Below, piece after piece: positions 30,506 through 36,505 of a DNA stretch of 36,505 nt (positions are counted from its first letter, which is position 1; each line of letters starts with the position of its first letter). The notes beneath the pieces were generated by a model. That model saw nothing but the letters and a program-made list of their open reading frames with translations, was not told where the DNA came from and searched no databases. Source of the stretch: Melioribacter sp. Lineage in GTDB: Bacteria; Bacteroidota; Ignavibacteria; Ignavibacteriales; Melioribacteraceae. Both the position numbers and the translations under genes were made by a program. The DNA lies in assembly GCA_029907415.1 (NCBI GenBank), contig JARYLX010000001.1, positions 1 to 36,505 on the forward strand, in the 5' to 3' direction.

Positions 30506-30550
30506 ATGGTGAATTATATAAAATGATTGAATTATGTGATAAAGTCTAAA

Positions 30551-30866
30551 ATTGAAGAATCTCTTAAAAATGAAAAATGGGATTAGATTCTTCGTCGCCC
30601 GCTTTCAGCGGTCTCCTCAGAATGACAAGGGAAAAGAATAACGGCGGGACTCCTCAGAATGACAGAAAAAAGTATAATTGTCATTCTGACTCGCCAAAGG
30701 CTAGGAAGAATCTAAATAATAATATTGTTTTTGAGATTCTTCGTCATCCACCTTTCGGTGGGATTCCTCAGAATGACAGGGAGAAAATAATGGCGAATTC
30801 CTCAGAATGACAGAAAAGAAATAACACTGTCATTCTGAATGGAGCGAAGCGGAATGAAGAATCTCA
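30551..30866. repeat. Cluster of dispersed GATTCTTC...GAATGACA palindromic repeats
   Basis: The 578-base gap between sodA and acsA contains no convincing gene. It holds at least six units of one repeat: 30585-30627, 30642-30665 (right half), 30734-30779 and 30792-30813 (right half) in plus orientation; 30679-30713 and 30828-30865 inverted; a left-end fragment lies near 30551-30563. Each full unit runs from AGATTCTTC to CAGAATGACA with a variable small hairpin between (such as CCACC/GGTGG). An open frame through the cluster (30577-30810) is just repeat sequence. The remainder, 30400-30476 and 30867-30977, is AT-rich, with short AATCTGCA-like repeats near 30417-30440. Confidence 0.8.
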
Positions 30867-30977
30867 AATAGCAAAACTTACTTTTATCGAGATAAAATTC
30901 GACTTACATCTTTTATTTTAGCATATTCTTGCAATCCTGTTATTTCAGTTTATAAAATATTTCTATTTCTTAATCTT

Positions 30978-33326: not shown

Positions 33327-33409
33327 TCAAACATTTTTTGTAATCAATAAAATATTTTTCTAAACGTAAAAATCTGAAGCGGTCATCGTCATAATATTTT
33401 AGAGATAAG

Positions 33410-33438
33410 AGATTCTTCACTTCGTTCAGTATGACATT
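33410..33438 (+). repeat. Single copy of the GATTCTTC...ATGACA repeat
   Basis: AGATTCTTCACTTCGTTCAG followed by TATGACAT, the same element as the cluster at 30551-30866, here short and with one change in the right arm. It sits in the gap before the TonB receptor gene. Confidence 0.7.
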
Positions 33439-33524
33439 GAGTTCAAAATTCATAATTCATTTTCGTCTGCATTAAGCATGCTTGGAAATGATATAAAAAC
33501 TAAATTTGATTGAGGAGATTCAAA

Positions 33525-35816: not shown

Positions 35817-35907
35817 GGAGAGGTGGCCGAGTGGCTGAAGGCAGCGGTTTGCTAAACCGCCATAGGGGCTTAAACCTCTATCGCGAGTTCGAATCTCGCC
35901 CTCTCCG
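35817..35907 (+). tRNA. tRNA-Ser(GCT)
   Basis: 91 bases, class II tRNA with long variable arm. Acceptor stem GGAGAGG (35817-35823) pairs with CCTCTCC (35900-35906), discriminator G at 35907. The T stem GCGAG/CTCGC encloses TTCGAAT. The anticodon loop TTGCTAA gives anticodon GCT (35851-35853), reading AGC/AGU. CCA is not encoded. All arms pair fully, so this copy looks functional. Its 3' part is repeated downstream. Confidence 0.97.
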
Positions 35908-35925
35908 CGAAGTTATATCTCTTCA

Positions 35926-36213
35926 ATGGAATATTTTGTTTACATACTTTACTCTCCTTCTCATAATCGTACTTATGTTGGTCAAACTAATGACTTAGTT
36001 TCTCGTTTATCTTATCATAATTCTGGCAAAGTAAAATCAACTAAACCTTTTAGGCCCTGGGTTTTAATTCATTCAGAATCTTTTTCTTCAAGATCTGATG
36101 CTATGAAAAAAGAAAAATGGTTCAAATCAACTTCCGGCAGAAAAAAAATTTCTGAGCTACTTAATATTTATCTTCTTTCTGAAGGCAGTGGTTTGTCCGT
36201 CCCGTCATTCTAA
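35926..36213 (+). CDS. Small GIY-YIG nuclease domain protein
   Basis: 95 residues, a single GIY-YIG domain: VYI (5-7) and YVG (17-19) form the two signature strands, R27 fits the catalytic Arg, and E63 in AMKKEKWFK fits the metal-binding Glu. It begins 18 bases after the tRNA. Residues 85-95 (from SEGSGL) are translated from the truncated tRNA copy and its first insert, and the stop lies inside an insert hairpin, so the native C terminus was probably replaced when the tandem unit formed. Small GIY-YIG proteins of this type are common next to tRNAs in Bacteroidota relatives; their role is not settled. Confidence 0.85.
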   Translation: MEYFVYILYSPSHNRTYVGQTNDLVSRLSYHNSGKVKSTKPFRPWVLIHSESFSSRSDAMKKEKWFKSTSGRKKISELLNIYLLSEGSGLSVPSF

Positions 36214-36247
36214 AAAATGACGGGACATGATCCCGACTTTTGTCGGA
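36196..36247 (+). mobile_element. Insert 1 (anticodon loop), two-hairpin mini-element, TCCG...CGGA ends
   Basis: 52 bases splitting the anticodon G/CT. Begins TCCG, ends CGGA. First hairpin: perfect 11-base arms (36199-36209 with 36216-36226, GTCCCGTCATT and its complement). Second: CCGAC-TTTT-GTCGG (36233-36246). The ends can pair, enclosing both hairpins. Absent from the intact tRNA copy, so its limits are exact. Mobility is inferred. Confidence 0.7.
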
Positions 36248-36275
36248 CTAAACCGCCATAGGGGCTTAAACCTCT

Positions 36276-36313
36276 CGTTTGAGTCCATCTGTCTCTAACG
36301 GAGTCAAATGACT
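36276..36313 (+). mobile_element. Insert 2 (variable region), single-hairpin insert
   Basis: 38 bases; the boundary can shift by 2 because CT is present on both sides (36274-36311 is equally valid). Contains TTTGAGTCC (36278-36286) and GGAGTCAAA (36300-36308), 8 of 9 pairs, with a 13-base loop. The CT on each side could be a 2-base target duplication. It lacks the TCCG/CGGA ends of the other two inserts. Confidence 0.6.
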
Positions 36314-36325
36314 ATAGCGAGTTCG

Positions 36326-36379
36326 TCCGTTTCGTCCTTTGGACGAAACGAGATCTCGTCACTTTTTCAAAGTGACGGA
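36326..36379 (+). mobile_element. Insert 3 (T loop), two-hairpin mini-element, TCCG...CGGA ends
   Basis: 54 bases between TTCG and AATC of the T loop. Begins TCCG, ends CGGA like insert 1. Two perfect 9-base hairpins: GTTTCGTCC (36329-36337) with 36341-36349, and CGTCACTTT (36357-36365) with 36369-36377, separated by GAGATCTC. The body differs from insert 1, but the architecture and ends are the same. Confidence 0.7.
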
Positions 36380-36413
36380 AATCTCGCCCTCTCCGCGAAG
36401 TTATATCTCTTCA

Positions 36414-36505
36414 ATGGAATATTTTGTCTACATACTTTACTCTCCTTCTCATAATCGTACTTATGTTGGTCAAACTAATAACTTAGTTTCTCGTTTATCT
36501 TATCA
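36414..36505 (+). CDS. Second GIY-YIG gene copy (partial, cut by window edge)
   Basis: 30 complete codons plus two bases from an ATG at 36414, 18 bases after the truncated tRNA copy, the same spacing as in copy 1. Product begins MEYFVYILYSPSHNRTYVGQ and differs from copy 1 by one residue (Asn for Asp at 23); there are two base changes in 92. The near identity indicates a recent duplication or ongoing homogenisation. The C-terminal end, which would show the undisturbed sequence, is outside the window. Confidence 0.85.
   Translation, partial: MEYFVYILYSPSHNRTYVGQTNNLVSRLSY

Follow-up and report, generated by a model that had tools for sequence, protein, structure and literature searches.

The end of this contig raises the question of why a displaced, incomplete copy of a tRNA-Ser gene, lying downstream of an intact one, is split by three hairpin-forming inserts. 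The stretch of DNA analysed, in the following called the window, is a whole contig of 36,505 nucleotides from Melioribacter sp. and ends at position 36505 inside a tandem repeat. A sequence-only reading had described the copy and its inserts and had considered palindromic mini-elements targeting hairpin tips or a structured RNA built on a tRNA scaffold, noting in addition that integrases are known to use the anticodon and T loops of tRNA genes.

The region in question is a tandem unit consisting of a tRNA gene, a small gene for a GIY-YIG nuclease and the tagged tRNA copy (Table 1). The nuclease reading frame runs into the tRNA copy, which holds its final codons, and its stop codon lies within the anticodon insert. 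Compared with the intact tRNA-Ser, the copy shows two base changes, C to T at 36189 and C to A at 36316. Positions 36380-36505 are 98% identical to 35892-36017 and open the next unit, whose GIY-YIG reading frame starts at 36414, gives a GIY-YIG match at 36414-36503 and is cut off by the contig end. The limits earlier proposed for the inserts of 52, 38 and 54 bases were exactly reproduced, as was the start of the copy, the end of which lies one base further downstream than the 36395 given before. The assignment of the inserts to three loops holds for the anticodon and T loops; the 38-nt insert is located two bases from the base of the 3' variable stem and thus outside any loop. The region of the tagged copy has a predicted folding energy of -93.2 kcal/mol versus -58.3 +/- 4.4 kcal/mol in shuffled sequences (z = -7.95).

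Table 1. Features of the tRNA-Ser locus at the end of the window
Feature	Position	Strand	Evidence or structure
Intact tRNA-Ser, anticodon GCU	35817-35908	+	ARAGORN; Rfam RF00005, 58.4 bits
GIY-YIG nuclease gene, 95 aa	35926-36213	+	ORF; Pfam PF01541, E=4.2e-17
Displaced tRNA-Ser copy, tRNA positions 19-92, with three inserts	36179-36396	+	Sequence alignment
Pieces of the copy	36179-36195, 36248-36275, 36314-36325, 36380-36396		Alignment to intact tRNA-Ser(GCU)
52-nt insert, centre of anticodon loop (TTTG^CTAA)	36196-36247	+	Two palindromes flanking the linker ATGATCC
38-nt insert, variable region	36276-36313	+	Weaker hairpin, 3' side of variable stem
54-nt insert, T loop (TTCG^AATC)	36326-36379	+	Two palindromes flanking the linker GAGATCT
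Beginning of next tandem unit: tRNA 3' end and trailer, then second GIY-YIG ORF	36380-36505	+	

The gene linked to the tagged copy had been overlooked in the sequence-only reading; it encodes a GIY-YIG nuclease and no integrase. In Pfam, the protein matches PF01541 only, and no DNA-binding domain was found beyond this catalytic one, in contrast to free-standing homing endonucleases of the SegB type. Residues Y6, Y17, G19, R27 and E63, which have a catalytic role in GIY-YIG enzymes, are invariant among eight relatives. A comparison with the corresponding gene of another genome of the same genus (G057) yielded a dN of 0.18 and a dS of 1.06, which indicates that the gene is under purifying selection and kept as a functional protein. 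Judged by the sequence profile of its relatives, the nuclease is of the UPF0213/SLX1-like kind, the best matches being the UPF0213 structures 1ywl (E=7.7e-12) and 1zg2 (E=7.1e-11), followed by SLX1 (E=2e-4). The NCBIfam model for group I intron endonucleases matched one of the eight relatives.

Beyond the window, 80 loci were chosen by nuclease sequence alone from a protein-only search with one genome per species. They are distributed over Bacteroidota, Ignavibacteriota, Chlorobiota, Marinimicrobia, Zixibacteria, Planctomycetota, Omnitrophota and several Patescibacteria lineages. An intact tRNA gene lies within 150 bp of the nuclease gene in 76 of the 80 loci and on the same strand in all 76. 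Displaced partial tRNA copies were found at 61 of the 80 loci and inserts in 51 of these copies, counts obtained by automatically chaining exact tRNA matches, a procedure that misses eroded copies. Within the family and order of the window, the same build occurs at tRNA-Ser, Leu, Asp, Arg, Pro, Asn and Glu. Two forms can be distinguished, a downstream form with the order intact tRNA, nuclease gene and 3' tRNA piece with inserts, and an upstream form, in which a 5' tRNA piece carrying inserts is followed by the nuclease gene and then by the intact tRNA. The units are often repeated in tandem, with up to five near-identical units in finished genomes, as in G091 (five units of 450 bases) and G093 (five units of 315 bases). 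The pattern is therefore neither a chance arrangement nor a one-off, and its presence in single-contig genomes (G091, G093, G050 and G080) shows that, as a class, it is no assembly artefact. Such an artefact of assembly or sequencing at the contig end, suggested by the array running off the contig, has a practically negligible probability in the window as well, given the same architecture in single-contig genomes and at many independent loci.

Nuclease clades follow the type of the neighbouring tRNA. In a tree of 120 nucleases, which is built from only 80 columns and contains many unresolved forks, the tRNA type changes at least 31 times versus about 75 times (minimum 70) in shuffled assignments, and the side of the cassette changes 18 times versus 41.

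The cassette is an insertion, as follows from empty sites in a family related to that of the window rather than at the window's own tRNA-Ser locus. At the tRNA-Arg(TCG) locus of Flavobacterium, 28 of 30 fetched loci are empty, with the upstream flank joined straight to the intact tRNA, and a cassette is present at this locus in L141 (genome G111) and at the matching tRNA-Arg locus in other Flavobacterium species from the nuclease survey. Filled and empty alleles thus exist at one locus, as in homing endonucleases. Location of the gene at its target is another trait of such enzymes, and for the 76 loci with a neighbouring tRNA this target would presumably be the tRNA gene. Upstream of the intact tRNA-Ser in G057 (L064:1202-1399), a 5' tRNA-Ser piece is present twice in tandem, each repeat measuring 99 bp. 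A 25-nt hairpin takes the place of part of its anticodon arm, and there is no nuclease gene; the repeats are possibly non-autonomous units. Locus L153 of an unclassified bacterium harbors several tRNA copies (Thr, Tyr) close to one another, with long hairpins of the type TCCCGCC...GGCGGGA.

The positions of the inserts are fixed and not scattered. Among 74 distinct, precisely delimited inserts, 62 occupy a loop or its edge and just 12 interrupt stems or junctions; if insertion were uniform over the covered part of the tRNA, the lengths covered would predict about 34 and about 39, respectively. The insertion point in the T loop is TTC^GA in 12 of 15 cases, that in the D loop is the 3' edge in 31 of 37, and that in the anticodon loop is its centre and nearly invariable. 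As the sequence-only reading had proposed to check, inserts with differing bodies do recur at the same loop positions across loci. Which arm is interrupted depends on the side of the cassette. In counts of complete arms that contain related loci, upstream cassettes have an interrupted D loop in 53 of 66 cases and an interrupted T loop in 0 of 7, while in downstream cassettes the T loop (26/56) and the anticodon loop (16/31) are interrupted more often than the D loop (3/15). Even the full-length or near full-length displaced copies at L159 and L136 are interrupted in the D loop only. Neutral insertion into a defunct tRNA copy would not produce a side-specific pattern of this kind. A reverse search with the split T-loop pattern returned mostly unrelated sequences together with three true tRNA arms. 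Two of these arms have a GIY-YIG gene in their vicinity, and the third lies close to the end of a contig.

Many inserts consist of two consecutive hairpins. The plan in the window's family is TCC, hairpin, linker GAGATCN, hairpin, GA, and the stem sequences vary by genome and remain largely complementary; the G057 counterpart of the window's 54-nt T-loop insert has the same layout and different stem sequences. In a set of seven 22-base T-loop inserts, 94.6% of the cells are paired and 11 cells are changed on both sides. The covariation of this set is 0.607, compared with 0.209 in shuffled sets (reached in none of 500) and at most 0.107 when slid. The folding energies of the inserts do not differ between sense and antisense strand (p = 0.31), and no excess of G-U pairs was found on the sense strand of the inserts. 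Watson-Crick pairing without strand bias favours a function of the inserts as paired DNA over one as RNA. An apparent excess of G-T over A-C in a single-mismatch count (18 vs 5) included non-primary helices and was superseded by the strand test.

The palindromes belong to the cassette. Two families of palindromes, F3 (CCTGCCTGCCGGCAGGCAGG) and F4 (CCCGCCCGTACCGAACGGTACGTTCGGGCGGG with its variants), recur in cassettes of different phyla. Their clear copies are confined to cassettes in five of the genomes checked (G107, G109, G111, G114 and G116), and in G103, G104 and G115 they are also dispersed outside them. One family is near-identical in two phyla, and the nucleases of F4 carriers have a median identity of only 51%. 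In cassette flanks lacking a called insert, GC-rich hairpins are enriched (29 of 44 above the 95th control percentile) according to a GC-weighted hairpin score, whereas stem length alone did not separate cassette flanks from AT-rich controls. In addition, F4 has complementary blocks in crossing order, resembling a pseudoknot, and the same-genome palindromes at L187 and L195 have equal arms and different centres of about 30 nt.

We tentatively favour, at nearly an even chance, a homing-like, tRNA-linked GIY-YIG cassette in which the palindromes would act as the cassette's own cis-acting DNA sites. Each tandemly repeated unit of this mobile cassette comprises the small nuclease gene together with part of the adjacent tRNA gene, and its insertion beside or within a tRNA gene would leave the intact tRNA accompanied by a displaced partial copy. 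In that copy, the palindromes would extend a tRNA arm into a hairpin or a branched DNA structure. This structure would most likely serve the nuclease, or the repair it starts, as a cis-acting site in amplification and transfer, and through the homology of the flanking tRNA arms the cassette would be guided to tRNA genes of a single type. Such a cis-site function would explain why the inserts are palindromic, conserved and present across cassettes, and why the intact gene is safe. The reading draws on the linkage to tRNA genes, the tandem units, the empty sites in the related family, the association of nuclease clade with tRNA type, the fixed insertion points, the constraint on pairing and the experimentally tested parallel of phage SegB; the action of the nuclease on the palindromes and the transfer guided by homology are inferred. 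Several findings count against it: no further copies of the window's inserts were detected elsewhere in its own genome at E 1e-3, about 30-42 copies of F3/F4 lie away from cassettes in Planctomycetota and Omnitrophota, one palindrome family is common to several nuclease clades, one nuclease clade can bear several palindromes, and some cassettes have no clear palindrome. A wider proposal has a probability well under an even chance: a so far undescribed class of mobile cassettes in about a dozen bacterial phyla or candidate phyla, with palindrome-tagged tRNA arms as moving parts, in which a minimal, structure-sensitive GIY-YIG enzyme would act on DNA hairpins added to tRNA arms and tRNA homology would direct the cassette to one tRNA type. 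No description of such cassettes was found in the searched papers, among which subscription journals and preprints were thinly covered.

The fixed positions of the inserts could also reflect interruption of a cleavage target. If a homing endonuclease cut tRNA genes at arm loops, inserts splitting this target would keep the displaced copy uncut, and so the cassette would not be lost through repair between the two tRNA copies. The dependence of the interrupted arm on the cassette side fits this idea, and so does the insertion point in the T loop, GTTC^GAATC: SegB, a GIY-YIG enzyme of phage T6, cuts inside tRNA genes with a preference for RAWTSGAAC, and its reverse complement GTTCSAWTY is the T-loop sequence split by cassette inserts (PMC13096335, available text). 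However, the intact tRNA retains an unsplit site, several displaced copies keep one unbroken arm, and the D-arm sequence in Flavobacterium is identical in carriers and non-carriers. Moreover, any insert would serve this purpose, and the palindromic form and the covariation are left unaccounted for. Target interruption thus explains the positions and neither the palindromes nor the intact gene, and we consider it rather unlikely. It is improbable that the palindromes are independent elements which insert at hairpin tips, persist only in non-functional copies and are unrelated to the nuclease. The dispersal of F3 and F4 in some genomes and the nesting of one palindrome within another at L160 would agree with such neutral insertions, whereas the side-specific choice of arm, even in full-length copies, the preservation of pairing through two-sided changes and the hairpin enrichment in flanks without called inserts would not. 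For the mini-elements suggested earlier, this means that their palindromic nature stands, but not their being free to strike any tip, since arm choice depends on cassette side and several genomes hold the palindrome (almost) only in the cassette.

A role of the displaced copy as a transcribed, structured RNA on a tRNA scaffold, for example one that regulates the nuclease mRNA as its leader or 3' element, could draw on the strong predicted fold, the conserved pairing and the overlap or contact of the copy with the nuclease reading frame. The strand bias expected of this second suggestion of the sequence-only reading is absent, the antisense inserts being as stable as the sense ones, and an Rfam search gave no family above threshold besides the intact tRNA, which makes the RNA reading very improbable. 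Weak Rfam hits to viral RNA elements were judged to be chance. A tRNA intron was likewise rejected, as the window's copy lacks tRNA positions 1-18, the intact gene lies alongside and no intron family was present in Rfam.

Among known systems, SegB resembles the cassettes in its GIY-YIG gene beside tRNA genes, its T-loop-like cut motif and the tandem amplification of tRNA-Tyr together with its own gene in phage T6, for which it is required; the available text on it makes no mention of displaced tRNA copies with hairpin inserts (PMC13096335). SegB is a free-standing homing endonuclease of T-even phages, whereas the cassette enzymes have only about 80-95 aa, are chromosomal and are tied to tRNA type by clade. 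REP palindromes, which are served by RAYT transposases, are likewise short and dispersed in some genomes (PMC3733652, as far as available). A REP-type GTAG/CGTC tag was not met beside the palindromes, the commonest starts being TCC, CCT, CCC and CCA (54 of 74 inserts), and the partner of the cassette palindromes is a nuclease instead of a transposase. The Ssn GIY-YIG single-strand nucleases of Neisseria are small enzymes paired with palindromic NTS DNA repeats, and the cassettes, too, pair a small GIY-YIG enzyme with palindromic DNA; to our knowledge, the Ssn/NTS system does not include tRNA copies. SLX1 is a structure-specific nuclease. We know of no description of UPF0213/SLX1-like nucleases, the best structural relatives of the cassette enzyme by sequence profile, as tRNA-linked tandem cassettes with palindromes. 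The sponge RHE are small hairpins inserting into mitochondrial genomes (PMC2800124, in the part available). The same applies to fungal double-hairpin elements and yeast GC clusters, which are small hairpins or double hairpins. All these organelle elements are mitochondrial, and none of them is known to us from a cassette of tRNA and nuclease.

Bacterial genomes commonly encode small GIY-YIG proteins, which usually have no known role. One large group of them is now linked to tRNA genes by type and strand and to DNA palindromes whose positions are exact to the nucleotide. If the favoured reading is true, the cassette is a homing-like element built on tRNA genes, which would give small GIY-YIG proteins a target and a test substrate, provide a bacterial counterpart of the amplification by SegB known from phages and account for broken tRNA copies and assembly-breaking repeats at tRNA genes.

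The window's own genome (G000) contains further cassettes. In contig C11 (L081), the T loop of a nearly full-length tRNA-Glu copy holds a double hairpin, and at the start of contig C172 (L080) a hairpin adjoins a T-arm piece in a tandem GIY-YIG unit. Dispersed intergenic palindromic repeats of the type GTCATTCTGA...AGAATCTC are located at positions 30540-30890 and 33400-33440 of the window.
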